Positions 34,956-56,897 of a DNA stretch of 64,000 nt are shown here, piece by piece. Positions within the stretch are counted from its first letter, which is position 1. Each line of letters opens with the position of its first letter. The stretch is from Diaphorobacter aerolatus (GTDB lineage: Bacteria > Pseudomonadota > Gammaproteobacteria > Burkholderiales > Burkholderiaceae_C), in the NCBI RefSeq assembly GCF_014489535.1, contig NZ_CP060783.1, positions 2,232,001 through 2,296,000 on the forward strand, given 5' to 3'. The position numbers were made by a program, and so were the translations under genes. The notes under the pieces were generated by a model. That model did not search any database and had not been told where the DNA came from. It saw nothing but the letters and a program-made list of their open reading frames with translations.

Positions 34956-35414
34956 CTACTCCAGTTTGCTCCAATCCTGCTTGCTTGCCAGTACCAATGC
35001 GTCCCAGTCGTCTGGCGGGTTTCCGCGCCCGAGCATCTTCTCGAACACTGCATACGGGTCTGACTTGCTACCCGATGACCGCAGCGTCTGCTCGTCGTTG
35101 ACCCAGGCGTACACGATGACCTTCGCCTTCGAGTCGTACCGGAAAAACAGCCGGTACCGTCTTCCGAGCTTGGCCCGCCGCCAGTGGCGATAAGCCGGCC
35201 CCATGGTATTGCCCTGGCGGTATTCGTCGCGCGCCGGATCGCCCGGCACCACGTCTTGCATCAACTGGACCAAGGCCCGGAAGAACTTAACGTTGGCGTT
35301 GGATCCGAAGCCCTCCGGGTCGTTCTCTTGCGCACGCAGCACGGCCGCGCGCAGTTTCATCAACTGCTCGATCAGGTTGTCGTGGAACAGCAGCGTCCAG
35401 CCATGCTGTTGCAT
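34956..35414 (-). CDS. yhaV: type II toxin, YhaV family
   Basis: 152 residues of the YhaV endoribonuclease family (RelE-like fold): HGWTLLFHDNLIEQLMKLR, GNTMGPAYRHWRRAKLGRRY, RLFFRYDSKAKVIVYAWVND. It is encoded directly after its antitoxin with one-base overlap of stop and start, so the two are co-translated. In this setting it probably stabilises the ICE by post-segregational killing, an inference from other ICE-borne toxin-antitoxin pairs. Confidence 0.93.
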   Translation of the reverse strand: MQQHGWTLLFHDNLIEQLMKLRAAVLRAQENDPEGFGSNANVKFFRALVQLMQDVVPGDPARDEYRQGNTMGPAYRHWRRAKLGRRYRLFFRYDSKAKVIVYAWVNDEQTLRSSGSKSDPYAVFEKMLGRGNPPDDWDALVLASKQDWSKLE

Positions 35415-35731
35415 CAGATTTCCACGTCCTCATCGAAATCGTCACCCAGGTTCACCTTGTGGCCCGCATGCTCCAGCATCGTACGAGCCAGATCCTCCGG
35501 CAGACCGCGAATGTTCCGGCCAGCCTCCATATCGCGCGCCAGCAGGGTCAGGAACGCGGCAATGGCGGGGTCTTCATGCTCGGCATCAGCACGGGTCACG
35601 ACCACTTCGCCGTCACGCAGGTTGAACGCGACTTTGCCGCCGGTATCCACCCCCAGCGCCTGCCGGATGGACTTGGGCAACGTGATCTGGCCTTTGGAGG
35701 TCAGCGTGGCAATTTCATGAATGGCAGGCAT
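35414..35731 (-). CDS. prlF: type II antitoxin, PrlF (AbrB-fold)
   Basis: 105 residues: SpoVT/AbrB swapped-hairpin DNA-binding domain at the N-terminus (IATLTSKGQITLPKSIRQAL), acidic C-terminus (GDDFDEDVEI) for binding YhaV. It precedes the toxin, as in PrlF-YhaV modules, and should repress their common promoter through the dyad at 35758-35783. Confidence 0.92.
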   Translation of the reverse strand: MPAIHEIATLTSKGQITLPKSIRQALGVDTGGKVAFNLRDGEVVVTRADAEHEDPAIAAFLTLLARDMEAGRNIRGLPEDLARTMLEHAGHKVNLGDDFDEDVEI

Positions 35732-35757
35732 GGCGGTTCTCCTGATCGCAATGCCCG

Positions 35758-35783
35758 CATGGTAAGGAAAATTCCTTACCATG
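35758..35783. promoter_or_regulatory. prlF: inverted repeat upstream of prlF-yhaV, probable PrlF operator
   Basis: Perfect 12-bp arms, CATGGTAAGGAA (35758-35769) and TTCCTTACCATG (35772-35783), separated by AA, 26 bp upstream of the antitoxin start. AbrB-type antitoxins bind such dyads for autoregulation. Confidence 0.75.
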
Positions 35784-36045
35784 TCAATATAGGGCCTCAT
35801 GGCGTCCTTCCGAATCCAACAAGCAATCCATCGTAGGACGGTAACAGCGAGCCTTCCCACACCAATCCGGCCCCGCCACACCCGCATTGGCAGTGGACGA
35901 TCAATGCCCCATCGCCCTATACCCAAAGGCCGAAGGCTGCTAAAGGCCAAAGGGCCGAAAGGGGAAGGGAATGGGGTGCAAGGGGAAAGGCTCTACCCAA
36001 AAAGGCTAAAAGGCCACCCGGTCGGCCCATCACCAGGACATCCGC
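35784..36045. other. non-coding region with a purine-rich AAAGGC repeat cluster before traI
   Basis: No convincing gene. Between 35925 and 36015 the motif AAAGGC(C) or close variants recur about six times (35925, 35942, 35950, 35985, 36001, 36010), embedded in a G/A-rich strand. This lies just upstream of the MobH relaxase gene, a location where an origin of transfer or a regulatory element could be expected; no nic site can be identified by eye. Confidence 0.45.
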
Positions 36046-37929
36046 ATGCTCTCCCTGTTCCAGCGAAAACGGCCTGTGATCTTGGCCACTGCGGTGCCTA
36101 CACCCGCCGCCGATCTCCCCAAAGGGCTACTGCGGCCCGAGTCGGCCGCATCGCTGCTCACGACGTCGCGCAGGCGGAAACTTCTGGAGCACATCTGGCA
36201 GCGCACGTCGCTATCGCGCAAGCAGTTCGCCACCCTCTATCGCGCGCCACTGGAGCGCTATGCCGAGCTGGTTCAACAGTTCCCTGCCTCCGAAAGCCAC
36301 CACCACGCCTACGCCGGCGGCATGCTCGACCACGGCCTGGAAATCGTCGCCTACAGCTTGAAACTGCGGCAGTCCCATCTGCTGCCGATTGGCGCCAGTC
36401 CCGAAGACCAGGCGGCGCAGTCTGAAGCCTGGACTGCCGCGGTCGCCTATGCCGCGCTGCTGCACGACATCGGCAAGATCGCCGTCGATCTGCACGTCGA
36501 ACTGGCCGACGGCTCGCTGTGGCACCCCTGGCACGGCCCGCTGCACCAGCCATACCGCTTCCGCTACCGCGACGATCGGGAATATCGGCTTCACAGCGCC
36601 GCGACCGGTTTGCTCTACCGCCAACTCCTCGACCGTGATGCCCTGGACTGGCTCAGTGGCTATCCCGACCTGTGGGGACCGCTGCTCTACGTCCTGGCCG
36701 GCCAGTACGAGCACGCCGGCGTGCTGGGCGAACTTGTCGTGCAGGCCGACCGGGCTTCGGTGGCCCAGGAACTGGGCGGCGATCCGGCCCGCGCCATGGC
36801 TGCGCCCAAGCACGCGCTGCAGCGCAAGCTGCTCGACGGGTTGCGCTACCTGCTCAAGGAACAGTTGAAACTGAACCAGCCGGAAGCCTCCGATGGCTGG
36901 CTCACCGAGGATGGTTTGTGGCTGGTGAGCAAGACGGTCTCGGACAAACTGCGCGCGCATCTCCTGTCTCAGGGCATCGACGGCATTCCAGCGAACAACA
37001 CCGCGGTGTTCAACGTCCTGCAGGATCACGGCATGTTGCAGCCGACGTCCGACGGCAAGGCGGTCTGGCGCGCGACCGTGACCAGCACGACTGGCTGGTC
37101 CCACTCGTTCACCTTGTTGCGTCTAACGCCCACGCTGATCTGGGAGCCGCGTGAGCGGCCGGCACCGTTCCCCGGCACGGTGGCGATCGACGTGGCGCCC
37201 ACGGACAAAGAGGCTGACGTGTTCACCACCATTTCGACGGCCGGCCCGCTGGCCGCCCCGGAAGGCCAAGAAGATCCACCAGGGGAAGGAGGTCGTTCAT
37301 CTTCAGCTCCTTCGTCCAAGTTCCAAACCTTGCCGGACGTGATGGAAGACATGCTTTCGATGGTGGGTATCGGCGACTTACCCGCGATCGGGCAGGACGC
37401 GGCAGTGCTCTCAGAGCAGGTGCCTGCCGCACGTCCCGAAATACCAACCTTGCCCGCGTCACTGCCGTCGTCGCCTGCGCCAGCGCCCTCGATAGCGCAT
37501 CCATCCGGGGAGCACTTCATGGCGTGGCTGAAACAGGGCATCTTGTCCCGCCGACTCATCATCAACGACGCAAAAGCGCTCGTGCATACGGTGAGCGGCA
37601 CGACCTACCTGGTCAGTCCCGGGGTCTTCCAGCGCTATGCGCAAGAGCACCCGCAAGTCGGCGCGCAGGCTAAGCAGGAGAGCCAGCAAGACTGGCAGTG
37701 GATACAAAAGCGCTTCGAGAGGCTGCAACTGCATCGCAAGCAGCCGAACGGCCTGAATATCTGGACCTGTAAAGTCACCGGGCCTAGAAAGTCCCGTCAC
37801 CTGCACGGATACCTTTTGGAAGATTCAAGCCTGCTTTTCTTAGAAACGCCGCCGAATAATCCCTACTTATCCCTGTTGTGTGAGACCACAGGAAGCGGAC
37901 TTCATGAAAGCAATGAGGGTCAACATTGA
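36046..37929 (+). CDS. traI: MobH-family relaxase (TraI_2)
   Basis: 627 residues, no frame break. The N-terminal TraI_2 domain contains the HD-hydrolase-like metal site (ESHHHAYAGGMLDHGLEIVA; AALLHDIGKIAVDLHVEL near residue 138), which defines MobH relaxases. The C-terminal domain (from about 480: EHFMAWLKQGILSRRLIIND, ALVHTVSGTTYLVSPGVFQ) is the TraI_2_C/DUF1528 type. The middle is a Pro/Ser-rich linker. It should nick the element at oriT to start transfer. A relic zone follows instead of the usual ICE genes. Confidence 0.93.
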   Translation: MLSLFQRKRPVILATAVPTPAADLPKGLLRPESAASLLTTSRRRKLLEHIWQRTSLSRKQFATLYRAPLERYAELVQQFPASESHHHAYAGGMLDHGLEIVAYSLKLRQSHLLPIGASPEDQAAQSEAWTAAVAYAALLHDIGKIAVDLHVELADGSLWHPWHGPLHQPYRFRYRDDREYRLHSAATGLLYRQLLDRDALDWLSGYPDLWGPLLYVLAGQYEHAGVLGELVVQADRASVAQELGGDPARAMAAPKHALQRKLLDGLRYLLKEQLKLNQPEASDGWLTEDGLWLVSKTVSDKLRAHLLSQGIDGIPANNTAVFNVLQDHGMLQPTSDGKAVWRATVTSTTGWSHSFTLLRLTPTLIWEPRERPAPFPGTVAIDVAPTDKEADVFTTISTAGPLAAPEGQEDPPGEGGRSSSAPSSKFQTLPDVMEDMLSMVGIGDLPAIGQDAAVLSEQVPAARPEIPTLPASLPSSPAPAPSIAHPSGEHFMAWLKQGILSRRLIINDAKALVHTVSGTTYLVSPGVFQRYAQEHPQVGAQAKQESQQDWQWIQKRFERLQLHRKQPNGLNIWTCKVTGPRKSRHLHGYLLEDSSLLFLETPPNNPYLSLLCETTGSGLHESNEGQH

Positions 37930-37953
37930 AGTCCCCTCAAATACCTGAGCCAC

Positions 37954-38093
37954 TCAGAAGTAGAGATTGGGGAACAGTTTGACACGGTACTCGACCGGTG
38001 GGATTCGGCCGAGGGCTTCATGGGGTCGATGGTGGTTGTATCGCTGTAGCCAGTCGGCCGTCATGTCACGCACCTCCTGCAGTGAATCGAAGA
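37954..38093 (-). pseudogene. IS3-family OrfB, C-terminal fragment
   Basis: About 45 codons matching the end of an IS3 OrfB (VRDMTADWLQRYNHHRPHEA, then LGRIPPVEYR). The catalytic part is missing: at about 38093 the sequence changes abruptly to a MerR-like fragment in the same frame, creating an artificial chimeric reading frame up to 38250. Confidence 0.85.
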
Positions 38094-38370
38094 CGTAGCG
38101 GCGAAAGCTGTCAGCGCCCTTCGAAATCGGCAGGAGCGGACAGTCCTTAATGTAGCGGATACTCACCCTCCTCTTATGGAGACCAACTGCTGGCTCCGAC
38201 GTTGGCTCAGCAAGCGATCCCATCGAAAGGTCACCAGCGGCATTCTCCAAATCAGTCTTTCTGGCTCCTGAGTTATGTGTCGATCACACCCGATACGCGC
38301 CTCATATTCCTTGACTTGTATCCGACTATGGAGTTTTCATAGGAATTTGTCCGCTTACGGCGACATCCCG
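38094..38370. repeat. collapsed relic of the merR/copL-like locus (diverged copy of 55.6-56.4 kb)
   Basis: On the minus strand 38094-38165 encodes a MerR-like piece (SIRYIKDCPLLPISKGADSF), resembling residues in merR at 55319-55786. On the plus strand 38175-38260 closely matches 56225-56308 (GGCTCCGACGTTGGCTC shared), and 38270-38370 matches 56350-56450, ending in GAGTTTTCATAGG and CGGCGACATC. Everything between those parts in the full locus is absent. So this is a deleted, mutated copy of the copper-region segment, flanked by an IS3 fragment. Confidence 0.8.
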
Positions 38371-39420
38371 TTTTCCTTGGTGCATGGTGGCCGAAAGCAA
38401 GCAGATCGCGCCAAGGGATATTGCAACGTCAGCCAAATTGAAAGCGGGCCAATGCGCTCCGTGCCAATGGAAATCGAGGAAATCGACTACAGCCCCTCGC
38501 AACAGGCGGTCAACTGCGTTACCCAGCGCGCCACCTAAGATCAGGCTATAACCCACGCCTTCCCATTTAGATACTCCTTGACGCAATAGGCGGATCAGCC
38601 AGATTGAGACTCCCAGCGCAAGCGCGGCAAAACCGAAACGCGCCCAGCTACCAGCACCAGCCAGCAGGCTGAATGCGGCGCCGTTGTTCTTCAAGTGGAC
38701 GAGATTGAAGAAAGGGGTTACAGCGACTTGATCGCCATAGCCGAAAAAAAGCGAGACGGCGGCCTTTGCGACCTGATCGCCAAATAGCACTGCGGCAGCC
38801 AAGCCGTACCAGATTCCGATTGCCCGCAGCCTCGTCAGCCTCCAGGCACTCGCCAGCATCGTCAACAGCGAACCAGCAAGCGCAAGGCTGCCGGAGGCGA
38901 TGCCCCAGCCGGCCAGCACGTCGGCGGGAAAGTGCATGCCCGCAGCAATGCGCGACCAGCCGACCAGAACGACATAAGCAACTAACGCCAATCGGTGGCG
39001 TACACCTGTCAGCGGCCACAACGCCCCGGCAACAAGTGCGGCGTAAGTGGAATGACCGCTCGGCAGGCTATAGTGCTCCTCCACTGTGCCAAGCACGTGA
39101 TTCAAATGGCCAAATACCGCTGCCGGTCGCGGAAAATCGAGCCAAAATTTCAAGATGGAGGCTATTGCAATCGCGATGCCGAAGCCGATCACGAATTGAA
39201 GAAGCTGCCGCCGAATTGCCAAGGCGTGATCGGCTGCTGCCGTTGATCTTGACCATGCCCACAGTCCGAGCATCACTAGGGGCGCAGTCCAGTAGTTGCC
39301 CAGGACGTTGCTGAAGATCCAGGCCAGCGGTATCAAAATCGGCGGCGTGGCCTCGTTGACGAACTGAAACAGGGCGCCATTCAATCCGCCCCAATCGTAG
39401 AGAACGGCCTCCCAACTCAT
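38326..39420 (-). CDS. pbrB: PAP2 phosphatase-signal peptidase II fusion (PbrBC-like)
   Basis: 364 residues from ATG 39420. The N-terminal half is a membrane PAP2 phosphatase (KFWLDFPRP, PSGHSTYAALVAG, SRIAAGMHFPADVLAG). The C-terminal half is LspA (FFNLVHLKNNGAAFSLL, GGALGNAVDRLLRGAVVDFL, FNLADVAISLG). This fusion is known from pbr lead-resistance operons, where phosphate released from undecaprenyl pyrophosphate is thought to precipitate exported Pb. Its start overlaps the ATPase stop by 2 bp (ATGA). The last residues are encoded inside the relic repeat, so the original C-terminus may differ. Confidence 0.9.
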   Translation of the reverse strand: MSWEAVLYDWGGLNGALFQFVNEATPPILIPLAWIFSNVLGNYWTAPLVMLGLWAWSRSTAAADHALAIRRQLLQFVIGFGIAIAIASILKFWLDFPRPAAVFGHLNHVLGTVEEHYSLPSGHSTYAALVAGALWPLTGVRHRLALVAYVVLVGWSRIAAGMHFPADVLAGWGIASGSLALAGSLLTMLASAWRLTRLRAIGIWYGLAAAVLFGDQVAKAAVSLFFGYGDQVAVTPFFNLVHLKNNGAAFSLLAGAGSWARFGFAALALGVSIWLIRLLRQGVSKWEGVGYSLILGGALGNAVDRLLRGAVVDFLDFHWHGAHWPAFNLADVAISLGAICLLSATMHQGKRDVAVSGQIPMKTP

Positions 39421-41816
39421 CGGCGCAACAGCCTCAACCCGTTGCCGACCACCAGCAGACTGGCCCCCATGTCGGCAAACACCGCCATCCACATCGTGGC
39501 TTGCCCGGTGAAAGTCAGGATCAGGAACACCGCCTTGATCCCCAGCGCGAGGGCGATGTTCTGCTTCAAGATGCTGGCTGTTGCACGGGACAGCCGCACA
39601 AACGTTGGCAGCTTGCGTAGGTCGTCATCCATCAGCGCAACGTCGGCGGTTTCGATGGCGGTATCGGTTCCCGCCGCCCCCATTGCAAAGCCGATGTCCG
39701 CACGCGCGAGCGCCGGCGCATCGTTGATGCCGTCACCCACCATGCCGGTTTTCCCGTCTGCCGACAGTTGCTCCACCTCGCGCAGCTTGTCTTCGGGCAG
39801 CAGGTTGCCCCGGCTGCGGTCAATGCCGACCTGGCTGGCGATGGCGGTGGCGGTGTGCGGGTTATCACCGGTCAGCATGATGGCTTTGATCCCCAGGCTG
39901 TGCAGTTCGGCAATGGCTTGGCGGCTGCTGTCCTTCACGGTGTCAGCCACTGCGAACAGAGCCCGCACCCCATCCTGACCGATTAGCGCCACCACGGTCT
40001 TGCCTTCGGCTTCAAGCGCGGACACCCGCAATTCCAGCGCAGGCGAACACATGTCCAGTTCCTCGACCAGGCGGTGGTTGCCTAGGTGATAGATCTGCCC
40101 GTCGATGCGGCCACGAACCCCGCGCCCAGGCAGCGCCGCGAAATCGGCTACATCGCGCGGCGTCAATCCATCGTTGACTGCGGCACGTGCCACCGCTAGG
40201 GACACCGGGTGATCTGAACGGGCGGCGAGGCTGGCGGCCAGCAATCTGGACGCATCAGGATCAGCGTTGCTCCATGCCGCGAAATCAGTCTGCGCTGGCT
40301 TGCCGTGCGTGATGGTGCCAGTTTTGTCCAAGGCCAGCCATTTGAGCTTGTGTCCCTCTTCCAGATAGACACCACCCTTGATCAGGATGCCGCGCCGTGC
40401 GGCAGCGGCCAGACCGCTGACAATGCTCACCGGCGTGGAGATCACCAAAGCACACGGACAGGCGATGACCAGCAGAACCAGCGCCTTGTAGATCCAGTCC
40501 AGCCACGGCCCGCCGAACACCAGCGGAGGCACAAGCGCTACGGCGAGGGCCACCGCAAATACGATAGGCGTGTACAGCCGCGCAAACTGATCGACGAAGC
40601 GTTGCGTCGGTGCGCGGCTTCCCTGAGCCGCTTCAACGGCGTGGATGATGCGAGCCAATGTCGATGCGCTGGCTGCGGCGGTGACGCGGAATTCGAACGA
40701 ACCCTCCCCATTGATCGTGCCTGCGAACACGGAATCGCCTTCAGCCTTGTCAACCGGAAGGCTCTCTCCAGTGATCGGTGCCTGATTGACGGTGGAGCGG
40801 CCCTCAACGACCAGGCCATCGAGGGCAATGCGCTCACCAGGTTTAACGCGCACACGGCTGCCCACGGGTACAGCCTTGGCGTCCACCGCAGCCCAACCGC
40901 CGTCCGCTTGTTGAACCAATGCTGTATCCGGCGCGAGATCCATCAAACCACGGATGGCGTTGCGAGCCCGATCCAGGGACTTGGCCTCGATCACTTCGGC
41001 CAGTGCAAACAGCACCATCACCATGGCCGCCTCAGGCCAATGGCCTATGAGCATAGCGCCGGTGACCGCAATGGACATCAACGCATTCATGTTCAGGTTG
41101 CGGTTCCTGAGCGCAATCCAGCCCTTCTTATACGTAGTGAGGCCGCCAGTGAGGATGGCCACCAAGGCCAGCGCGACCACAGCCCAGTGGTTGCCGCCGT
41201 TGAGCCAGTACACGACCTCGGCCAGCGTTGCGGCTACGCCTGACACCACAAGCGGCCACCAGTTTGTGCGCGCAGGCGCTTGTGCCTCGGCCGCCGAAGG
41301 GGCTGAGGCCGTGCGTATCTCGGCATCGAAGCCGAGTGATTTCAGGGCCGCAAGCACATGGGGGAGTGCGTCGGGTGTGTGCCCGACTTGCAGGCTTCGC
41401 TGGACGAGGTTGAACTCAAGATTCGCAACGCCTGGCACGCCGGCGAGCTTGCCGCGAATCAATGCCTCCTCGGTGGGGCAGTCCATTTGCTGGATGGACA
41501 ACACGGTACTTTGCTGCGCTGCCTTCTCGTCCATCCGAACCGCTCGCATGCCGATGGCCGATAGCGCCTCTTCGATGGGGCGGAGCGAGGCGGGCTGATA
41601 GCTAATGCCCAGCGTTCTCTGCACCAGATTGAATTCGAGGCCGCCCACGCCCGGCACTTTCCCGAGCTTGTCGCGAATCAGCGCTTCCTCGGTCGGGCAA
41701 TCCATGTTCTCGATGCGGTAGCGCACCTGTCGCAACGCTGCATCGACCGTGTTCGGTTTCGGGCTGGGCATCGCAACGGCAGAGCAGCCACATCCCTTGG
41801 AACCACATTCACTCAT
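39417..41816 (-). CDS. pbrA: Pb/Cd/Zn-exporting P1B-2 ATPase (PbrA/CadA)
   Basis: 799 residues from ATG 41816 (MSECGSKGCGCSAVAM, a Cys-rich start). Two HMA domains each with MDCPTEEALIR in place of the copper-type CxxC, then the membrane metal site CPCALV, TGES, DKTGT, HP and [10 protein letters not shown]. The CPC plus D/E-containing HMA motif fits P1B-2 pumps for Zn, Cd and Pb. Unlike several neighbours it has no frameshift. Divergent from the MerR-type regulator across a 19-bp-spaced promoter, and followed by the PAP2-LspA gene, as in pbr clusters. Confidence 0.93.
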   Translation of the reverse strand: MSECGSKGCGCSAVAMPSPKPNTVDAALRQVRYRIENMDCPTEEALIRDKLGKVPGVGGLEFNLVQRTLGISYQPASLRPIEEALSAIGMRAVRMDEKAAQQSTVLSIQQMDCPTEEALIRGKLAGVPGVANLEFNLVQRSLQVGHTPDALPHVLAALKSLGFDAEIRTASAPSAAEAQAPARTNWWPLVVSGVAATLAEVVYWLNGGNHWAVVALALVAILTGGLTTYKKGWIALRNRNLNMNALMSIAVTGAMLIGHWPEAAMVMVLFALAEVIEAKSLDRARNAIRGLMDLAPDTALVQQADGGWAAVDAKAVPVGSRVRVKPGERIALDGLVVEGRSTVNQAPITGESLPVDKAEGDSVFAGTINGEGSFEFRVTAAASASTLARIIHAVEAAQGSRAPTQRFVDQFARLYTPIVFAVALAVALVPPLVFGGPWLDWIYKALVLLVIACPCALVISTPVSIVSGLAAAARRGILIKGGVYLEEGHKLKWLALDKTGTITHGKPAQTDFAAWSNADPDASRLLAASLAARSDHPVSLAVARAAVNDGLTPRDVADFAALPGRGVRGRIDGQIYHLGNHRLVEELDMCSPALELRVSALEAEGKTVVALIGQDGVRALFAVADTVKDSSRQAIAELHSLGIKAIMLTGDNPHTATAIASQVGIDRSRGNLLPEDKLREVEQLSADGKTGMVGDGINDAPALARADIGFAMGAAGTDTAIETADVALMDDDLRKLPTFVRLSRATASILKQNIALALGIKAVFLILTFTGQATMWMAVFADMGASLLVVGNGLRLLRR

Positions 41817-41849
41817 GGCAACTCCTCTTGTGTAAATCTGAGGTTGATG

Positions 41850-41880
41850 ATTTAACACTCTATAGTTACTATAGAGTCAA
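41850..41880 (-). promoter_or_regulatory. pbrA: MerR-type pbrA promoter and PbrR operator
   Basis: Read on the minus strand: -35 TTGACT (41880-41875), 19-bp spacer, -10 TTAAAT (41855-41850). The spacer carries a 9+3+9 dyad (ACTCTATAG-TTA-CTATAGAGT, 41857-41877). A 19-bp spacer over a dyad is the classic MerR-family activatable promoter; it faces pbrA and lies 26 bp before the regulator start on the other side. Confidence 0.9.
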
Positions 41881-41902
41881 GTCATTTATCCCAATCCGCA
41901 CC

Positions 41903-42337
41903 ATGAACCTCCAGATCGGAGAACTTGCCAAGCGCGCTGCCTGTCCGGTGGTGACGATCCGCTACTACGAGCGAGAGGGGCTGCTGCCGCAGGCTCGCCG
42001 CAGCCAGGGGAACTTCCGCTTGTACGGAGAGGCGCATGTGGAACGCTTGCAGTTCATACTTCGCTGCCGCTCGCTCGACATGCCATTGAGCGACGTGCGG
42101 ACTTTGTTGAGCTACCGGGACCGACCTGCGCAGGATTGCGGTGAGGTCAACCTGCTTCTGGATGAGCGCATCCGGGAGGTGAAATCACGGATCGATGCGC
42201 TGCGCGAACTGGAACACCAGTTGGCCGACTTGCGCGATGCGTGCTCCGGCGCCAGACCTGTCGAAGCGTGCGGAATTCTGCAAGGACTATCGGGATGCGC
42301 GTGTGATGCGCGGGGAGCCATCGCTCCCGTCGAGTGA
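41903..42337 (+). CDS. pbrR: MerR-family Pb/Cd-responsive regulator (PbrR/CadR)
   Basis: 144 residues from ATG 41903 (MNLQIGELAKRAACPVVTIR). MerR winged helix, then a dimerisation helix (Cys in RPAQDCGEVNLLLD, the Cys79 equivalent) and a C-terminal Cys-rich metal site (CSGARPVEACGILQGLSGC plus a further Cys). That Cys pattern is that of PbrR/CadR. Divergent from pbrA; it should twist the 19-bp-spaced promoter when Pb or Cd is bound. The open frame extends upstream, but 41903 gives the family N-terminus. Confidence 0.92.
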   Translation: MNLQIGELAKRAACPVVTIRYYEREGLLPQARRSQGNFRLYGEAHVERLQFILRCRSLDMPLSDVRTLLSYRDRPAQDCGEVNLLLDERIREVKSRIDALRELEHQLADLRDACSGARPVEACGILQGLSGCACDARGAIAPVE

Positions 42338-42469
42338 CAAATGGGTGGGCTGATCAAGCCATGACAGACCCCCTCCAGCCCCTGATGCTCTTCCGGTTGT
42401 GGTGCCGCGCATAGATAATGAATTATAATCATTCGCATTTATAAGCGAATTCTCCGCCGGTAAGGCCCC

Positions 42470-44403
42470 ATGCAAGCCCTGCGCATACTCTTAGCCGTTC
42501 TGTTCTCTTGGCTCGTGGCCGTCTCCGGCGCGCATGCTGATCCCTTGGCTACGCAAGACAAGGCCAAGCAAACCTGGCAATTGCTGGACTACCTTGCGGT
42601 CGATTACGGCGGCGCTGTGCGGGATGGCAAGGTTCAAAGTGCCAGCGAATATGAAGAAATGAAGGAGTTTGCTGCGACGGCAGTGCAGCAACTTGCTGCA
42701 CTGCCGAGCACGCCGGCACTCCCTGAACTGAAACGCCAAGCCACGGCACTTAGCGAACTCATCGCAGCCAAGGCCGACGCGAAGGCCGTGGCCGACAGTG
42801 CCCATTCACTGGCGGCGGCGCTGGTCAAGGCGTACCCGTTCCCGCTTTCGCCCTCCACGCCGCCGGATCTCGCGCGCGCCAAGGTGCTTTTTGAAGCCAA
42901 CTGCGCGGCATGCCACGGGGCGACTGGCCGGGGCGATGGCCCGCTCGGCGCAAAGCTGACCCCACCGCCGATCGCATTCACCGATCGCGACCGGGCACGC
43001 TCGCGCAGCGTGCTCGCGCTCTATCAGGTCATCTCTCAAGGCGTTGCTGGCACGTCGATGCCCAGTTTCGCCACGCTCTCCGACGAAGATCGGTGGGCGT
43101 TGGCATTTTTCGCCGGAACGCTGTCGCACGACGACGCCATGCGCGCGCGCGGTGAACAATCCTGGGGCCGAGATGCCACCGCCAAAGCCGTCTTTCCCGA
43201 CTTGGCGGCCGCTGCCACATTGACCGAGGCCGCCTTGTCCGAACGGATGCCGCCAGACACGGCACGCGATCTGACCGCCTACGTCCGCAGCCATCCAGAA
43301 GTGACCATCACCGCCAACGGCACGGGCGGGGTGGGCTTGGCCCGCGCACGGCTTCAGGAGAGCCTTGCCGCAGCGCGCGCAGGCGACCAGGCCAACGCGA
43401 CGCGCTTGGCTTTGTCCGCCTATCTGGATGGCTTTGAGCCACTGGAGCCGGCATTGCGCGCACGCAACCAGGCGCTGCTCACCGAAGTGGAAAATTCCAT
43501 GCTGGCCTACCGCGGCGCACTTGCCAGCGGCAAGCTGGAGCAAGCGGACGCTACAGCGCAGAAGCTGGACTACCTTTTTGCCCAAGTCGATACCGAATTG
43601 GGGCGAATAAAGCCGAGCCGCTGACCACCTTCATTGCCTCGATCACCATCTTGCTGCGCGAAGGCGTGGAAGCGCTGTTGATCGTCGTCGGCATGCTCGC
43701 TTTCCTGAAGAAGGCCGAACGGCGCGATGTTCTGGCCTACGTCCACGGCGGTTGGATCGTGGCGCTCGCCTGCGGCGGCTTGACTTGGGCCGTGGCAACC
43801 TACTTCGTTAGCATCAGCGGTGCCAGCCGGGAGGTGACCGAAGGGGTGTCGTCGCTCTTTGCGGCCATTGTTCTGTTGAGTGTCGGCCTCTGGATGCACC
43901 AGAAGAGCACCGCCGGCAAATGGCAGGCATATCTGAAGGAAAAACTCTCCGCAGCCATGACGCGCCGCTCGGCATGGGCATTATTCGCGCTGTCGTTCAT
44001 CGCCGTCTACCGCGAGGTTTTCGAGACGGTGCTCTTCTACTCGGCCTTGGCCGGTGACGGCAACAACGGTGCATTGCTCGGTGGACTGCTGAGCGGGATG
44101 GCCGCCCTCGCCATCCTCGCATGGCTCATGCTGCGCACCAGCGCCCGCATGCCGATTGGCAAGTTCTTCAGCCTCAGCTCGATTCTGGTGGCTGTCCTCG
44201 CTGTAGTGCTTGCGGGCAAGGGAGTTGCGGGTCTTCAAGAAGCCGGTTGGCTGAGCGCCAGCCCGATCCATTGGCCACGCATCGAAGTGCTTGGGATTTA
44301 TCCGTCGGCAGAGACCACCTTAGCGCAAGCCGTGATCCTCATCATTGCATTGGTCGGTTTTGCGCTGAATGCCCAGACTGCTCGCCGGTCGCAGGCGGCG
44401 TGA
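42470..44403 (+). CDS. pbrT: PbrT-type cytochrome c-FTR1 permease fusion (one frameshift)
   Basis: 644 residues when one G is restored at 43600-43603. Signal peptide (LLAVLFSWLVAVSGAHA), a helical domain, a cytochrome c domain with heme motif CAACHG (near residue 145), a linker, then an FTR1-type permease with the two REGxE/RExxE motifs (LLREGVEALLIV; VYREVFETVLFY) and about seven helices. In pbr operons this protein is described as a Pb(II) uptake system; FTR1 relatives import iron. The heme domain may couple redox to transport. A near-palindrome, AATGAATTATAATCATT, lies at 42417-42433 upstream. Confidence 0.87.
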
Positions 44404-44502
44404 TGTTCGGTGCTCCTGAATCGTTGGGCTCGAAACCATCGCACTGATTACCCCAAGGATGCTCTCCGCGTTGACGTCCACTTCCCATGATGCAATTCCG
44501 TC

Positions 44503-44520
44503 GCGTGCCAGCTGGCACGC
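44503..44520. other. 18-nt perfect palindrome in the pbrT-IS gap
   Basis: GCGTGCCAGCTGGCACGC at 44503-44520 is perfectly self-complementary. It lies 100 bp after pbrT in about 160 bases with no gene. It could be a terminator stem (no T-tract) or a protein-binding site; nothing decides. Confidence 0.45.
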
Positions 44521-44698
44521 CAAACAGCGTGACCCATTACCTAGTCCGCCCTGAACAATTCCGTTTTCAGGCAGCCGCAGTTGTTGGCATGCGAAGTTGG
44601 CGGGCAAGGGCGTCCAGGCGATGTTTGCTGTCCGTGGTCACCACGAACTTCCGTAAGCGTCGCCTCAACACCCTCTTGACGAGGATGACAGCGGATAG

Positions 44699-45220
44699 TC
44701 AAACGTCCAGGACGTGGCGCAGCAGGGCGAAGCCGACGCGCCAATGGGAGCCATCGCCGGGGTCGATGGTGGCGGTGCGGCTGTTGATGCGCACGATGAT
44801 GCCCACCACGGTCTGCAGGTACTTGTCCTCAAAGGCCACCTTTTCGCCACAGCGGAAGTCGTTGCGTGTCGGTCGCGTTGGGGCGGGCGGCTCTGGCTCC
44901 ACCGCTTGAGGAGGTGCCGCAGGATCGGGCGGAGGCGGTTCGATTGCGGCGTAGGGCAGCTTCCACTCCTTGCGCTCTCGCAAGTCCTGCAAGGTGACCT
45001 GGGCCTCGCGCATGGCCACGACCTTGCCTTCACGCAGGCTGCCATCGCGCCAGTCCACAAAGCGCACCGTCTGGCCCAGGTGCATGTCCTTGCGCACGGC
45101 AATGATGCGCCGCGGATCGGCCAGCAGCCGCTCGATCAGCGTGCTCAGCTGGAACAGCTCCAGGCTGCTGGCGCTCTGCAGGGCGTCCAGCACCCGAGGG
45201 TCGATGCCGGGTGCACTCAT
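44699..45220 (-). CDS. IS66-associated accessory protein
   Basis: 173 residues, no signal or membrane segment. Helical N-terminus ([20 protein letters not shown]), then two small beta-rich modules ([40 protein letters not shown]) joined by a Pro-rich linker. It is the last gene of the element, overlapping tnpC by 4 bp. Passenger genes at this position exist in some IS66 elements; function unknown. Confidence 0.75.
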
Positions 45221-46788
45221 GCTGCCCGGCGCTGCTGTGTTGGGCTGACCCCTGTGTGCATCAGGTTCCAGGGCAACAGCTCATCGATGCGGTTGATGGG
45301 GTGCTGGGCAATGCGGCCGAGCACCTCACGCAGGTAGGCCTCGGGGTCCAGCCCATTGAGCTTGGCGGTCTGCACCAGGCTGTAGATTGCGGCCGCGCGC
45401 TCGCCGCCCGCGTCCGAGCCCATGAACAGGTAGTTGCCCCGCCCCAAGGCCACCCCACGCAGCGCCCGCTCGGCGGCGTTGTTGTCCATCTCGATACGGC
45501 CGTCATCGCAATAGCGCGTCAGGGCCTGCCAGCGCGCAAGGCTGTAGCCGATGGCCTGTGCCAATTCCGATTTGGCCGACACCCGCCCCAGCAGTTGGCT
45601 CAGCCAGGCGTGCATCTCCTGCAGCAGCGGGCCAGCCCGCGCCTGGCGTTGGGCCTGCCGAACATCGGGAGCTTGTCCCCGAATGTCGCGTTCGATCGCA
45701 TACAGCTCGGCGATGCGTCCGAGCGCCTGTGCGGCGATGGAAGTCTCGTCTTTGCCGCTGCTGAGGTACAGATCCCACCAAGGTCGGCGCGCGTGCGCCC
45801 AGCAAGCGGCCTCGGTGATCTGGCCTGATCCGTAGAGCTTGCCCCAGCCGCCATAGGCGTCTGCCTGCAGGATGCCCCGGTATTGCCGCAGGTGCCGCTG
45901 TGGGTGTTCACCCTTGCGGTCCGGCGTGTACTGGTACCAGGCTGCAGGAGGCTCGCTGGAGCCGATCGGGCGGTCGTCTCTGACGTACACCCACAAGCGT
46001 CCGGTCTTGGTCTTGCCCCGCCCGGGCTGCAGCACCGGGACGGGGGTGTCGTCGGCGTGGATCTTGGCCGCCGCCAAGGTGTAGCGCCCCAGCGCCGCCA
46101 CCAGCGGGTCCAGCAACTGATCGGCCTGATCGACCCAGCCGGCCAGCGTGGAGCGGTCCAGCTCAACGCCGCTGCGGGCGTAGATGCCGCTTTGGCGGTA
46201 CAAGGGCAAGTGGTCGCAATACTTGGAGACCAGCACATGGGCCAGCAGGCCGGCGCCGGCCACACCACGCGCAATCGGGCGGCCCGGTGCGCTGGCCTGG
46301 AAGATCGTCTGGCAGCCCACGCAAACCAGCTTGGGCCGCACATGCCGGATCACCTTGAAGTGCGCCGGCACGTACTCCAGCTGCTCGGAGACGTCTTGCC
46401 CGATCTTGCGCAACCGGGCACCGCAGGCCGTGCAGCCGCAGGGTTGGCCCGTACCGTCGTGATGGCTGTTGCTGAGCTGGGGCAGGTGTTCCTGGACGTC
46501 GCGCGGCAGATGCGCCGGCAGACGGCGGTCGATCTGCGCGTCATTGGCGGGGGCCGGCACCGGGACACCCTTGGCACGCATGCTCAATGCGGCTTGGTCG
46601 CCATCGATCAAAGGTATCTGTGCCGCCCACTGTTCACTGGAGGTGCCGAATTCGGAACGAACCCGGCGCAGCAGTTGCAACTTGAGCTTGTCGACCATCA
46701 GCTTGAGCAGTGCCACCTCGCTATCGCGCGCCTTGATGAGGCGCAGCAATTCTTCGTAGCTCGCAGGTGATGGGGTGGGCGTCGACAC
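45217..46788 (-). CDS. tnpC: IS66 transposase TnpC
   Basis: 523 residues. N-terminal coiled coil and Leu-zipper region, zinc-finger-like [14 protein letters not shown] and CVGCQTIF, then the DDE domain ([50 protein letters not shown]). Intact, full length for IS66. Confidence 0.95.
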
Positions 46789-46848
46789 GGCCTGGAGTGT
46801 GCCTCACCCCCAGTCCGGCTCCATCGGGAATGACCCGCAACGCCAGCT

Positions 46849-47196
46849 CTACGCGGCCAGCTCCGGCCGATGCGTGCGCGCTGGCATGCGCCAATCGATG
46901 CCTTCGAGCAGCATCGACAACTGTGCCGGTGTCAGCGATACGCCACCGCCCGAGGCTTGGGGCCAGACGAAGCGCCCGCGTTCGAGTCGCTTGCTGAGCA
47001 ACAGCAGGCCCTGGCCATCGAACCACAGCACCTTGAGGATGTCGCCGCGCCGGCCGCGGAAGACGAAGACGTGGCCACTGAACGGGTTCTCGCTCAGCGC
47101 GGTCTGCACCATCGCGGCCAGACCATCGAAGCCCTTGCGCATGTCGGTGTGTCCGGCCACGATCCACACCCTCGTGTTCGCTGGCAGGCCGATCAT
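46849..47196 (-). CDS. tnpB: IS66 protein TnpB
   Basis: 115 residues from ATG 47196 (MIGLPANTRVWIVAGHTDMR). Contains KGFDGLAAMVQ, VFVFRGRRGDILKVLWFDGQ and GLLLLSKRLERGRF, the full IS66 Orf2 signature. It overlaps tnpA by 4 bp. Required with TnpA and TnpC for transposition. Confidence 0.95.
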   Translation of the reverse strand: MIGLPANTRVWIVAGHTDMRKGFDGLAAMVQTALSENPFSGHVFVFRGRRGDILKVLWFDGQGLLLLSKRLERGRFVWPQASGGGVSLTPAQLSMLLEGIDWRMPARTHRPELAA

Positions 47197-47588
47197 GCGC
47201 GCAGCGCGGCCAGCACCGTCGTCAGTTGCGCGGCATCGACCTGACCACTCAGGCGGATGACGGCGCCACACAGTTCGATCTCCACCGTCCCCGTGGACGG
47301 TTGGGCAAGGGTGGTCGCCACCACATCGGCACAGGGCTGCTGTGCGAGCACAGTCACGGGTAACAGCGTCGGGGTGCCCGATTGCCAATGACCCAGCTTC
47401 ATCCAGTGACGCAGCAGATTGGCATTGACGCCGTTGCGCAGCGCCAGACCCGCGACCGATGCGCCCGGTCTGCTGGCCTGTTCGACCAGCCAAGCCTTGA
47501 AGGTTGAGAAATAGATGTGCTTGCCGTTGCGAAGGGTGCGCTCAACCTTCGGGCCGCTCCACTCAGGGGTATGTCCACTGTCTTGCAT
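47193..47588 (-). CDS. tnpA: IS66 protein TnpA
   Basis: 131 residues: N-terminal helix-turn-helix (FKAWLVEQASRPGASVAGLA, NGVNANLLRHW) and a C-terminal segment with VEIELCGAVIRLSGQVD, usual for IS66 Orf1. Starts 61 bp from the element end. Confidence 0.9.
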   Translation of the reverse strand: MQDSGHTPEWSGPKVERTLRNGKHIYFSTFKAWLVEQASRPGASVAGLALRNGVNANLLRHWMKLGHWQSGTPTLLPVTVLAQQPCADVVATTLAQPSTGTVEIELCGAVIRLSGQVDAAQLTTVLAALRA

Positions 47589-47649
47589 ATGGACGCATGC
47601 TGACCTGCTCCCCTCGGCCCGGCAACAAGGGCCTTGAGGCCACGCTTAC

Positions 47650-49232: not shown

Positions 49233-51187
49233 ATGCCGCCTCGTTCACCCTTTTTTATCGTGCCCACACAGGGCCTTTCTCGTCGGCGTTTCGTCCAAGG
49301 GTTAGCCGCCGGCGGCGTTCTCGCTGGGCTGTCCACGCCGGCGTTCAAGGCATTTGCCCAGCAAGGCTCCGCGACGCGCGGTGCCGCCCCTGTGCTGAAG
49401 GGCACCGAGTTCGACTTGGTGATCGCCGAATCGCCCGTGAACTTCACGGGCAAGCCAGGCGTGGCTACGACCATCAACGGCTCGCTGCCGGCACCGACAT
49501 TGCGTTGGCGCGAGGGTGACACCGTCACAATCCGTGTAACCAACAAGCTGCGTGAAGCCACATCCATTCACTGGCACGGGATCATCCTGCCGTATCAGAT
49601 GGATGGCGTGCCGGGCATCAGCTTCAATGGCATCGCTCCCGGCGAGACCTTCACGTACCGCTTCAAGGTTCAGCAGAGCGGCTCCTACTGGTACCACTCG
49701 CACTCCGGCTTCCAGGAACTCACGGGCATGTACGGGGCGATCATCATCGACCCCGCTGGCGCCGAGACCATCCACGCCGACCGTGACCACGTGCTGCTGT
49801 TCTCGGATTGGACCGACGAAGACCCGATGCGGGTGTTCACCAAGCTCAAGTCCCAAAGCGACTATTACAACTACAACCAACCTACCGTCTTCGACTTCTT
49901 CCGGGACGCCTCGCGCGAAGGCACGGCCGCTGCGATCGACAAGCGCAAGATGTGGAACGAGATGCGGATGAATCCGACGGATCTCGCAGATCTGTCTGCC
50001 GCCACGCTGACCTATCTGGCCAACGGCGTCACCCCCGCCGGCAATTGGACGGCGCTGTTCCGACCGGGTGAGCGCGTGCGGCTGCGCATGGTCAACGGTG
50101 CGGGCAACACCTTCTACGACGTACGCATTCCAGGACTGAAACTCACGGTGGTGCACGTCGATGGTGTTGACGTGGAGCCGGTGACCGTCGATGAGTTCCG
50201 ATTCGGTCCTGGCGAAACCGTCGACGTGATCGTCCAGCCACGGGATGACGCTTACACGATCTTCGCCCAGGCGATGGACCGGACAGGCTACGCGCGTGCC
50301 ACGCTGGCCGTGCGTGAAGGTCTTCAAGCTCCCGTGCCTGCCCTCGATCCGGTCGAATGGCTGACCATGAACGACATGATGGGCGGCATGATGGGGGCAT
50401 GGACCATGGCGGGTCCGGCCAGGCCATGGAGATGACCGGGATGACCGGGATGACGGGCATGACGGGCATGACGGGCATGACGGGCATGACGGGCATGACG
50501 GGCATGACGGGCATGACTGGGATGACCGGGATGGGCTCGGGTTCGATGTCCGGGATGGATCATGGGGCGATGGCAGGCATGAATCACGGCGCCATGAACC
50601 ACGGTGGCATGGCGATGGATCACAGCCAACACGCCGCGGCGGCGGGGGGACTGGCCGTGCCCAGCACTACTGCTCGCCACGCTCGCACCGAGTATGGTGC
50701 CAGCACGGACATGCGCGTTGACATGGCGCGCACCAACCTCGATGATCCCGGCATCGGACTGCGCAACAACGGTCGGCGCGTGTTGACCCTCGCGGATCTG
50801 CATACCCCGTCGGGGCCGCTGGACAAGAGAGGCCCCGGCCGGGAGGTCGAACTGCACCTCACGGGCAACATGGAACGCTACGCATGGTCCCTGGACGGGC
50901 TGGAGTTCGGAAAGTCCACGCCGGTGCACTTCAAACACGGCGAGCGGCTGCGGGTCATTCTGCACAACGACACCATGATGACCCATCCCATGCACCTGCA
51001 CGGCATGTGGAGCGAGCTGGAAAGCCCCGACGGTCGCTTCCTTGCGCGCCGCCACACCCTGCCGGTGCAGCCGGCACAACGCATCAGCTTCCTGGTGACA
51101 GCCGACGCGCTCGGCCGCTGGGCGTGGCACTGCCACCTGATGTTCCACATGGATGCCGGCATGTTCCGCGAAGTCGTGGTGTCTTGA
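49233..51187 (+). CDS. copA: CopA multicopper oxidase, copper resistance (one frameshift)
   Basis: 651 residues when one G is restored at 50393-50397. Twin-arginine signal peptide (LSRRRFVQGLAAGGVLAGL). Three cupredoxin domains with copper ligands IHWHG, YWYHSHSG, HPMHLHG and HCHLMFHMDAGMF. Between domains 2 and 3 lies a Met/His-rich part with an unusual run of eleven Met-Thr-Gly units (about residues 400-433) followed by MDHGAM- and MNHGAM-type repeats, which should bind Cu(I). It oxidises Cu(I) in the periplasm. First gene of copAB, under the cop box. Confidence 0.93.
50432..50530 (+). repeat. copA: eleven tandem 9-bp repeats in copA
   Basis: Eleven consecutive 9-mers encode MTG. The first two are ATGACCGGG, the next seven are identical ATGACGGGC, and the last two are ATGACTGGG and ATGACCGGG. 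The identical block (50450-50512) should be prone to gain or loss of units by slippage without changing frame. Confidence 0.95.
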
Positions 51188-52203: not shown

Positions 52204-52437
52204 TTGAGGCGGGTCAGTTTTGCGTGGAAATTAACAATCGAGGAGATGTCGCCCACCGAGCTGACGCTGGCGCACGAGGCCGTGCCGGCCCTCCAATGGC
52301 CGGCCATGACCATGGGCTTCAAGCTGAGCAGCCCGCAGCTCGCCGCGGGTCTTTCGGTTCGGCAGCAGGTGCGATTCACCTTCTCCCAGCAAGGTGAGGA
52401 CTACGTGATCACCGCCATCGAAAAGGTGCAGCCATGA
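52204..52437 (+). pseudogene. CusF-like copper-binding domain, probable CusB C-terminus remnant
   Basis: About 70 codons of a CusF-type domain (ELTLAHEAVPALQWPAMTMG, then FKLSSPQLAAGLSVRQQVRF) including the W/M copper site. CusF domains occur fused at the C-terminus of many CusB adaptors, and the following ATGATCGCC (52434) overlapping its stop is how cusA usually begins. There is no signal peptide, and the 5' part is replaced by the copB end. I read it as what is left of cusBA after deletion and IS66 insertion; a stand-alone truncated cusF is the alternative. Confidence 0.7.
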
Positions 52438-52677
52438 TCGCCAACGCTCACAAGAAGCTGGAGGCTTGGCAGCACGCGCACCCGGATCAACGACTGCAGG
52501 GCAAGGAGCGATGGGACGTGATCACACAGGCCGCGGAGGAAGTCGGCCGTGCCACCTGTGCCGACGCTGTCGCCACGCTGCATCGCCGTGGAGATCCGCC
52601 GTGGCAGCACCACGGTGCAGGCCGAGCTACCGCTGGACGCGCGCAGCGCCGCCTGGCTGCGCGAGGTTCTGGGTTGA
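52434..52677 (+). pseudogene. tnpA: IS66 TnpA, internally deleted
   Basis: The first frame ([20 protein letters not shown], then [15 protein letters not shown]) breaks off near 52570. A different frame resumes with [20 protein letters not shown] and stops at 52677, the normal end of an IS66 TnpA. The missing middle includes most of the HTH region. Whether the first three codons belong to the IS or to a former cusA start is unclear. Confidence 0.6.
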
Positions 52678-53006
52678 TCCGCGTCGACGCCGTCTGGCTG
52701 GCCGTGCAACCGCTGGACATGCGCCTGGGCACCGAAGCCGCACTGGCCCGCGTGGTCGGCATCTTCGGTGCCGCACACCCGCACCATGCCTACCTGTTCA
52801 CCAACCGGCGCGCCAACCGCCTGAAGTGCTTGGTGCACGACGGCATCGGCGTGTGGCTTGCGGCCAGGCGACTCAACGCCAGCAAGTTCGTGTGGCCGCT
52901 GGACGGCGCCAGCACGCAAAACCTGACGCGCGTGCAACTTGACGCGCTCGTGCTGGGCCTGCCGTGGCAGCACCTGGGCGAGGCCGGCATCATCCGCACG
53001 ATCTGA
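52674..53006 (+). CDS. tnpB: IS66 protein TnpB
   Basis: 110 residues, TTG start at 52674 overlapping the tnpA stop. Contains [40 protein letters not shown] and [18 protein letters not shown], a diverged IS66 Orf2. Length normal. Confidence 0.88.
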
Positions 53007-54661: not shown

Positions 54662-55229
54662 ATTCCCATCCCCGGTGTCAGGGGCTGGGAATCTACACCG
54701 TGCCCCGGCCTACAACCGTCAAGATGTGTTCGGCGGACGCATACTCTACGGCGGCGTGCGTGCGCGCTTCACCGGCCTCGAAGCCAACGGCAATCTGCGT
54801 CTACAAGGGCCGGACGGGTTATCGCGGACTTCCGACGGCTCGACGCTGGATCTGGCATGGCGGACTGACGTTGTACGGGCCACAAACCTAGATACCGGCG
54901 AGCCGCTACCACGCATCGCTCCGCTGCGCATTGGCGCGACCCTGGTCTACGGTAACGGGCCGTGGAACGCGCGGCTTGGCTTCGACTACAACGCAGCGCA
55001 ACGCCGAGTGCCGGCCAACACGCGCGAGACCGAGGCCTACACGCTGTGGAACGCCGCGATCACCTACGGCATGAAGGCACAGCGGGCGCGGCTGACCTGG
55101 TACGCGCGCATAGACAACTTGACCAACAAGCTCGCCTACAGCCCTACCTCGATCCTGACCACGACGGTGTATCCGAACGCACCGCTGCCGGGACGCACGC
55201 TCAGGATCGGCGTAAGGGCGACCTTCTGA
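54662..55229 (+). pseudogene. TonB-dependent outer-membrane receptor, C-terminal remnant
   Basis: About 189 codons of the last beta-strands of a TonB-dependent receptor: DVFGGRILYGGVRARFTGLE, ARLGFDYNAAQRRVPANTRE, WYARIDNLTNKLAYSPTS and the C-terminal PGRTLRIGVRATF ending in Phe. The plug and most of the barrel are missing, lost at the IS66 junction. Copper-linked receptors (OprC-type) are plausible from the neighbours but not proven. Confidence 0.85.
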
Positions 55230-55318
55230 TCCGGTTGTAGTGGAGCCCTCCGATCTATGCCGGGCTCCCAAACGAGAACCCTGGTCTGCTCCTTACTCTG
55301 CAATCCAAATACCATCAG

Positions 55319-55786
55319 CTATCGCAAACGACTGGTTGGCGGCGATTGAACCGGAGGCGGGCCAACAAGTGCGGCGATGATGGGGCAAGGGGACGCTTGC
55401 CCCATCTCCTCGCACTGCAAGAGCATGTCCCGTAGAGCACCTTGCATGCGTTCGAGATCGCCGAGCTTCTCATCGATCTGGTCAAGGCGCCGCCGTGTCA
55501 CCGTCTGAATGGCTCGGCGATTCCGCCCATCCTCCAGGTCCAAGAGCGATTTCACCTCGTCCAGCGAGAACCCAAGGCTTTGCGCGCGCTTGATGAAACC
55601 TATCCGCTGGATCATCGAAGCGGGGTAGCGCCGGAAGCTGCCGGCGGCCTTCGGGATCGGCAACAGGCCGCGTCCCTGGTAGTAGCGGATTGTCTCCACG
55701 CCGACACCAGCGACCTTCGCCAGCCTGCCGACAGTCATCCAATCACCCGGACCTTCTTTCATTGAGGGATCCACTGTCTTATTCAT
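55319..55786 (-). CDS. MerR-family regulator of the copper/PPK2 cluster
   Basis: About 155 residues; starts possible at 55786, 55762 or 55738. MerR winged helix (MTVGRLAKVAGVGVETIRYY, GRGLLPIPKAAGSFRRYP), dimerisation helix, and C-terminal LLQCEEMGQASPCPIIAAL with two Cys nine residues apart, as in MerR Cys117/126. The Cys82 equivalent is absent (LEDGRNRRAIQ), so it is not a normal Hg(II) sensor. Divergent from the 55907-64000 gene run; a small dyad ACGCAGCACTGCGT lies at 55802-55815. Confidence 0.85.
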   Translation of the reverse strand: MNKTVDPSMKEGPGDWMTVGRLAKVAGVGVETIRYYQGRGLLPIPKAAGSFRRYPASMIQRIGFIKRAQSLGFSLDEVKSLLDLEDGRNRRAIQTVTRRRLDQIDEKLGDLERMQGALRDMLLQCEEMGQASPCPIIAALVGPPPVQSPPTSRLR

Positions 55787-55906
55787 GACCGACAAAGAAT
55801 AACGCAGCACTGCGTAGTTGACCCCTGCCTCCATTTGATCCAAATCAATTTCCCGCAGCTCAGTTGGGAATAGGATCACAGGTGTCAATGGGTCAATAGG
55901 CCGCAC

Positions 55907-56341
55907 ATGCGCACACTTCTCAACCACCGCAGGATTCGCGCCATCGCGTGGATGGTGCTCGGGGTATGGCTGTTTGCGCTCGGGGCCGGGGTGGCCAATG
56001 CCTGCCTTCTGGAGTCTCCGCAGCAACATCGGCATGCTGTCGGATATGAGCATGTTCCATCGTCCGGGCATGGAAATCATGAAGGCCTCCATGGTGAGCA
56101 CGAAGAAGGTTCGCACGACCCGTCGAAGGCCCCGTGCCTGAAGCTCTGCGGCGACGTCAACCAGTCCGCCATTCAGAAAGCACCAACCTTCGCGTTCGAC
56201 CTCGTCGGTTTGGCGCCTCCCGCCTATGGAGACCAGCTGCTGGCTCCGACGTTGGCTCTGCGAGCCATCCCATCGAGGGGTCACCAGCGACCACCTCCCA
56301 AGCGGCCGTCGTGGCTGCTGTTCGAGCGTCTCGCGCTGTAG
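55907..56341 (+). CDS. secreted His-rich protein, CopL-like
   Basis: 144 residues. Signal peptide or anchor (IAWMVLGVWLFALGAGVANA) then Cys, His clusters (HRHAVGYEHVPSSGHGNHEG, LHGEHEEGSH) and CLKLCGDVNQSA. The pattern resembles CopL-type or similar metal-responsive proteins next to merR/cop genes in beta- and gamma-proteobacteria, but the family name is a guess. Its 3' end and the following intergenic sequence have a diverged copy at 38175-38370. Confidence 0.65.
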   Translation: MRTLLNHRRIRAIAWMVLGVWLFALGAGVANACLLESPQQHRHAVGYEHVPSSGHGNHEGLHGEHEEGSHDPSKAPCLKLCGDVNQSAIQKAPTFAFDLVGLAPPAYGDQLLAPTLALRAIPSRGHQRPPPKRPSWLLFERLAL

Positions 56342-56495
56342 CGCCTCCTTTGAGTTGCCGTGTCGGTCACACCCGGCGCACAACTCATAAGCCTTGACTC
56401 TGTACCCGACTACGGAGTTTTCATAGGGCTTTGTCCGCTTGCGGCGACATCGGTTTCGCCCCAATGGCAGGCACCCGCGGCTAAAGGAGAGAGAA

Positions 56496-56897
56496 ATGAA
56501 ATTCACGCATTCGATCGCGGCCATCGTTGGCGCCGCACTGGTCACCTTGTCTGCGTTCGCGCAGGACAACCATCAGGCCCATCACCCCGCAGGTGCGAGT
56601 CCGACCGCGGCCGAGACGCCAAGGGCGCCGACCACCGAGGGCATGGATGCGCAACTGAAGTCGATGCAGGCCATGCACGAACGGATGGTGGCTGCGAAGA
56701 CGCCTGCGCAGCGCAAGGCGCTCATGGCCGAACACATGCAGGCCATGCGGGCTGGCATGGCGATGATGGGCGCAATGAAGGATGGAGCCGAGTCGGCGCC
56801 GACAGCTGAGCGGCAGCAAATGCTCGAAATGCGCATGGACATGTGCCAATCCATGATGCAGATGATGATGGACCGGATGCCTGAGCCGGCGAAGTGA
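56496..56897 (+). CDS. periplasmic Met/His-rich protein
   Basis: 133 residues with signal peptide (IAAIVGAALVTLSAFA). The mature part is helical and very Met-rich (MQAMHERMVAAK, MRAGMAMMGAMK, MCQSMMQMMMDRM), with DNHQAHHPAG at the N-terminus. Such Met clusters bind Cu(I)/Ag(I). AAAGGAGAGAGAA supplies a strong ribosome site. A copper-scavenging role is inferred from composition and context. Confidence 0.75.
   Translation: MKFTHSIAAIVGAALVTLSAFAQDNHQAHHPAGASPTAAETPRAPTTEGMDAQLKSMQAMHERMVAAKTPAQRKALMAEHMQAMRAGMAMMGAMKDGAESAPTAERQQMLEMRMDMCQSMMQMMMDRMPEPAK

Follow-up and report, generated by a model that had tools for sequence, protein, structure and literature searches.

The stretch of DNA analysed here (64,000 nucleotides of the Diaphorobacter aerolatus contig NZ_CP060783.1; "the window") carries a pbr lead-resistance cluster next to genes of a conjugative backbone. 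Between the two lie pieces of sequence related to an intact merR/copL-like metal cassette found further along in the window. The order is IS3-family end, merR piece, copL-like 3′ piece, leader and pbrBC, with identical joins in two other genomes. The features are:

36046-37929, plus strand: traI relaxase gene of the conjugative backbone (Pfam TraI_2, 1-324/324; TraI_2_C, 2-125/126)
37927-38099, minus strand: terminal 173 bp of an IS3-family element, comprising the transposase C-terminus (Pfam rve_3/rve_2) and the outer end TGAAGTCCCC
38095-38168, minus strand: remnant merR fragment (53/74 columns identical to 55625-55697)
38169-38262, plus strand: remnant copL-like 3′ part (69/82 identical to 56220-56301; tblastn 66% identity)
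38263-38368, plus strand: remnant leader and MerR-type promoter, from the lost downstream operon (83/101 columns identical to 56351-56451; motif scan)
38326-39492, minus strand: pbrBC, PAP2 phosphatase fused to signal peptidase II (Pfam PAP2, Peptidase_A8)
39332-39356: switch from the remnant-bearing pbr type (L008) to another pbr type (L010) (diagnostic-site map)
55319-56451: whole intact counterpart (merR, copL-like gene and MerR-type promoter)
55319-55786, minus strand: intact merR (the start codon is our choice)
55907-56341, plus strand: intact copL-like gene, without Pfam family
56394: TTGACT of the intact MerR-type promoter, with a 19-bp spacer counted by hand

Both TraI domains are essentially complete in the Pfam comparison, and the TGA stop codon of traI is formed by the first three bases of the IS outer end. 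The IS sequence is 87% identical to an element of Hydrogenophaga BPS33 annotated as IS3 family, which has identical terminal sequence at its two ends. In the window the element is incomplete, with one end only and without a full transposase. Its match stops at 38099 while the merR match starts at 38095, the sequence GTAGC being common to both. A YhaV/PrlF toxin-antitoxin pair is found at 34956-35950, between the TraG_N and TraI genes. No tRNA gene was identified in the window.

The initial annotation described the merR, copL-like 3′ end and intergenic pieces as ordered and oriented like those of the intact locus, a description borne out by pairwise alignment and shuffling. Alignment gave three significant blocks within the 274 bases of 38095-38368, collinear with the cassette at 55.3-56.5 kb: 38095-38167 with 55625-55697, 38170-38251 with 56220-56301, and 38269-38367 with 56351-56451 (83 identical columns, 16 mismatches and 2 gap columns in this leader block). 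Compared with 55300-56550, segments 38094-38165, 38165-38250 and 38262-38370 score 27, 55 and 61. The best scores of dinucleotide shuffles were 16, 20 and 16 for the merR, copL-like and leader pieces, respectively, so that the collinear homology of each piece is beyond chance (0 of 500 shuffles per piece reached its score). The best non-self BLAST match of each piece within the window is the intact copy (E 2e-5, 1e-21 and 1e-22), the next-best ones having E values of 0.13, 0.18 and 0.21. Scores far above those of the shuffles, together with next-best window matches at E of at least 0.13, confirm that the remnant is real. The merR piece gives the weakest of the three matches. It scores 28 against the window merR, 8 on the opposite strand, and 20 against merR of Acidovorax T1. 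Four other MerR genes or regions give 12, 10, 8 and 8, in no case above their shuffle maxima. A chance similarity of short MerR motifs is ruled out by the shuffles and, for merR, also by the strand and by the comparison with other MerR genes.

No cassette gene survives in the remnant. Of merR, ~74 bp are left, joined to the IS end, and only the 3′ part of the copL-like gene is matched. The view that everything between the pieces was deleted holds for ~520 bp between merR and copL and for ~30 bp between copL and the promoter block, as deduced from the aligned coordinates. The copL-like piece retains the parental frame (28 codons compared), and a longer protein match at 38121-38270 is 52% identical with one TAA inside, located by sequence in the merR part. 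The intact cassette, present in the window and in plasmid p1-T1 of Acidovorax sp. T1 (L076), shares the three collinear pieces and the promoter with the remnant. In p1-T1 it is followed by ppk2 and a P-type ATPase gene; besides the merR-copL stretch, the remnant lacks the entire downstream operon, and its promoter has a spacer of 18 instead of 19 bp. The intact copL-like protein (55907-56338) matched no Pfam family; the name copL stems from the initial annotation.

Other traces of rearrangement are found near the intact cassette. A copA-type multicopper oxidase gene at 49233-50435 is truncated (profile positions 4-377 of 593). The first 42 residues of ORF 52434-53006 match a CusA/CzcA pump (E 1e-6) and the remainder IS66 TnpB; an IS66 element has probably disrupted an RND pump gene here. 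The C-terminal fragment of a TonB-dependent receptor is encoded at 54675-55229, between an IS66 transposase gene and merR.

On the opposite side of the remnant, pbrBC codes for one protein with both PAP2 and signal peptidase II domains (signal peptidase match 2-139 of 142). The remnant and the join supply the codons for its last 14 residues. Homology to the pbrBC of three related islands (L009-L011) covers residues 1-374, and at the DNA level it extends down to 38372, beyond which those relatives have other sequence. PbrBC has 383 amino acids in L009, which retains its own pbrBC end, and 388 amino acids in the window, L007 and L008. The 14-residue tail is a lasting effect of the remnant and may influence PbrBC function. 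In L010 and L011, whose contigs match the window at 98% identity over 38372-44499, the pbrBC frame stops after 158 residues, by a real frameshift or an assembly error. The cluster shares with pbr of Cupriavidus metallidurans CH34 pMOL30 the order lspA-type gene, P-type ATPase, Cd/Pb regulator and FTR1-family gene. It differs by its separate cytochrome c and FTR1 frames, where the CH34 annotation has one long FTR1-family gene, and by a pbrBC that terminates in the copper remnant.

The region 37900-38420, with IS end, remnant and pbrBC end, is 99.8% identical (521 aligned bases) in islands of Hydrogenophaga intermedia S1 (L007, a 4.5-kb contig) and of an Aquabacterium metagenome-assembled genome (MAG; L008). 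These two were the only matches to the remnant among 64 pbrBC loci, of which 59 extend 600 bp or more downstream and 53 extend 3 kb or more, measured from where the protein match stops (some matches are partial). A 98-bp match to merR only was found in L044. An intact merR-copL beside pbrBC, which the initial annotation proposed to look for in other genomes, was not detected in any of the 64 loci at the sensitivity used. H. intermedia S1 carries both the remnant and, on another contig, the intact cassette, whereas no intact cassette was detected in the Aquabacterium MAG, which may be incomplete. The presence of the same remnant in two other genomes, of which one has no detected intact cassette, supports the proposal that it is an independent copy and does not derive from the intact copy of the window. 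The H. intermedia contig departs from the window inside traI at 37783 (L007:4412-4486), which is either another junction or a contig-end artefact.

The pbr cluster of the window is a recombinant. In 200-bp bins, identity to L008 is 97.5-100% over ~36.35-39.35 kb and ~85-95% thereafter, while identity to L010 is 88-93% up to ~39.35 kb and then 98-100% to ~44.17 kb. A map of 577 diagnostic sites, with gap columns skipped, has an A-B-A pattern: the L008 state is found at 95/96 sites in 38385-39331, the L010 state at 399/403 sites in 39357-44190, and the L008 state again at 78/78 sites in 44202-44636. Four of the five exceptions form one short return at 39438-39501. From ~39.35 kb through the ATPase gene, L007 and L008 are thus of another type, mostly 85-95% identical to the window in these bins. 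Islands L009-L011, of the Tn4371-like kind, have pbr beside a trb-type transfer region and are devoid of the remnant. A LysR gene, a coupling protein gene and T4SS ATPase genes come after pbr in L010, with similar reading frames in L009 (and in L011 as far as its contig extends), whereas the window has TraI_2, TraG_N and TraC_F_IV genes. Which lineage was donor and which was recipient is a direction that we infer. The sites beside the remnant have the L008 state, so the remnant belongs to the L008-type part. It lies on an L008-type tract of ~3 kb joined to another pbr type, and therefore most likely arrived already collapsed; this speaks against the initial suggestion that the cassette decayed in place beside the present pbr cluster. 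An IS66-family element at 44653-47649, absent from the L008 contig, is flanked by the 8-bp direct repeat GAACTTCC, as after a recent insertion. An 8-bp target duplication is the rule for IS66 elements.

We conclude with good confidence that the segment is what remains of a second merR/copL-like metal cassette, located where the conjugative backbone meets the pbr lead cluster. It is an older, independent copy that most likely collapsed before reaching the present genome. The ancestral island would have had an IS3-family element on the merR side of this cassette and pbr on the opposite side. One deletion could have joined the IS interior to merR over GTAGC, another merR to the copL-like 3′ end, and a third the operon leader to the pbrBC end. 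The intermediate, an intact merR-copL beside pbr, was seen in none of the genomes (64 loci), so we infer these deletions and their order. The collapsed island would then have spread among Burkholderiales, and the cluster of the window would have arisen by recombination with a different pbr type inside the pbrBC/pbrA region. The lasting effects would be the PbrBC tail and perhaps antisense transcription.

The divergence of the pieces bears on whether they all come from one cassette. With T1 as outgroup, remnant-only and intact-only changes stand at 18:1 in merR (p=0.0001), 9:4 in copL (p=0.27) and 9:5 in the leader (p=0.42), the latter two ratios not being significant. The excess in merR is expected once a formerly constrained gene has lost its function. 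Remnant-side changes affect 22/73 columns in merR and 20/181 in copL plus leader (p=0.0006), an excess beyond that predicted for a single cassette decaying neutrally and evenly; the merR piece may therefore stem from a different merR. The copL end and promoter would then come from one cassette and the merR piece from a more distant merR that a rearrangement on the IS side introduced. In line with such a composite, identity to the intact copy is 72% for the merR piece versus 82-84% for copL and leader, although a comparison of the intact copy with T1 shows merR to be the most conserved of the three (63/72 aligned bases), with T1-only changes at 5/73 positions in merR versus 42/181 in copL plus leader (p=0.002). 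By alignment score, the intact copy is matched better by the remnant than by T1 in copL and leader, but not in merR. Loss of constraint explains the direction of the merR excess, and so part of it, while its size leaves room for another origin. The order, orientation and strand of the pieces nevertheless agree with the cassette, whose own merR is the best match among the six MerR genes or regions compared, and we regard a composite origin as unlikely.

The remnant promoter has TTGACT at 38311, an 18-bp spacer and an altered left half (spacer count and −10 assigned by hand). The intact promoters of the window, L092, L093 and L094 have TTGACT, a 19-bp spacer and TTTCAT; that of T1 is alike but with TCTCAT. 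The remnant promoter (window, L083 and L084) is one base shorter than the intact copies and departs from the MerR-type layout of a 19-20 bp spacer with a dyad between −35 and −10. In a study of mer, derivatives with 17-18 bp spacers are generally strong constitutive promoters (PMC11049809), and in one of pbrA a spacer of 18 bp gave higher activity whether or not lead was present (PMC3431237). The remnant promoter is directed into pbrBC, where it may drive constitutive antisense transcription. A consensus scan of 37900-38500 yielded neither a promoter-like (sigma-70) nor a terminator-like site, so promoter activity can only be called possible; RNA around the join shows no unusual structure (z −0.22). 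That the collapse made a constitutive antisense promoter out of a metal-regulated one, and that this and the new PbrBC tail together alter the regulation of lead resistance, seems to us quite improbable; if true, the fossil would alter this regulation in the islands carrying it. It is more doubtful still that the remnant was retained because antisense RNA from the shortened promoter tunes lead resistance: the precedents of mer and pbrA and the missing base would favour it, but the hand-assigned −10 (TTTCAT) is weak, the scan is empty, and recent transfer accounts for the near identity of the three copies. A partial duplication of the 55-kb cassette that decayed in place, suggested by the shared orientation and the ~18 kb between the copies in one island, is rejected as highly implausible: the intact copies of G105, G1004 and G1007 are each ~95% identical to that of the window, while the remnant is only 70-89% identical, piece by piece, to any of these four and not clearly nearer to one of them (top value 62/70 bases, in a shorter alignment of copL with L093); moreover, the remnant recurs almost unchanged in two other genomes, in one of which no intact copy was detected, and sits on the L008-type tract of the mosaic.

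No intact relative closer to the remnant turned up in database searches, although a divergent cassette could escape the methods used. Among plasmids, 38100-38371 had zero matches at E up to 1, and 37900-38500 matched 10 records only in the IS end or the pbrBC end. The intact-locus DNA matched seven plasmid records, T1 over 99% of the query and six over 6-15% in the merR part, and the copL-like protein two, Acidovorax T1 and a distant Polaromonas gene. Matches were found in 2/250 genomes of the family (the genome itself and G105, an intact copy), 1/399 of the order (itself) and 3/6 of the genus (itself, with G147 and G1002 at the IS end only). The copL-like protein matched 3/369 genomes of the class, those other than its own (G114 and G577) being distant. 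None of 13 candidate stretches in viral contigs was confirmed. Among the titles and abstract openings listed, none deals with the remnant, but an account of it may still be published.

The remnant is an ordinary fossil of mobile-DNA shuffling and not a new system. Its scar, small and well defined, illustrates how metal-resistance islands get patched together. Shared by three genomes, it marks one lineage of pbr clusters, and it reveals that pbr clusters lying beside two different conjugative backbones have recombined in the pbrBC/pbrA region.
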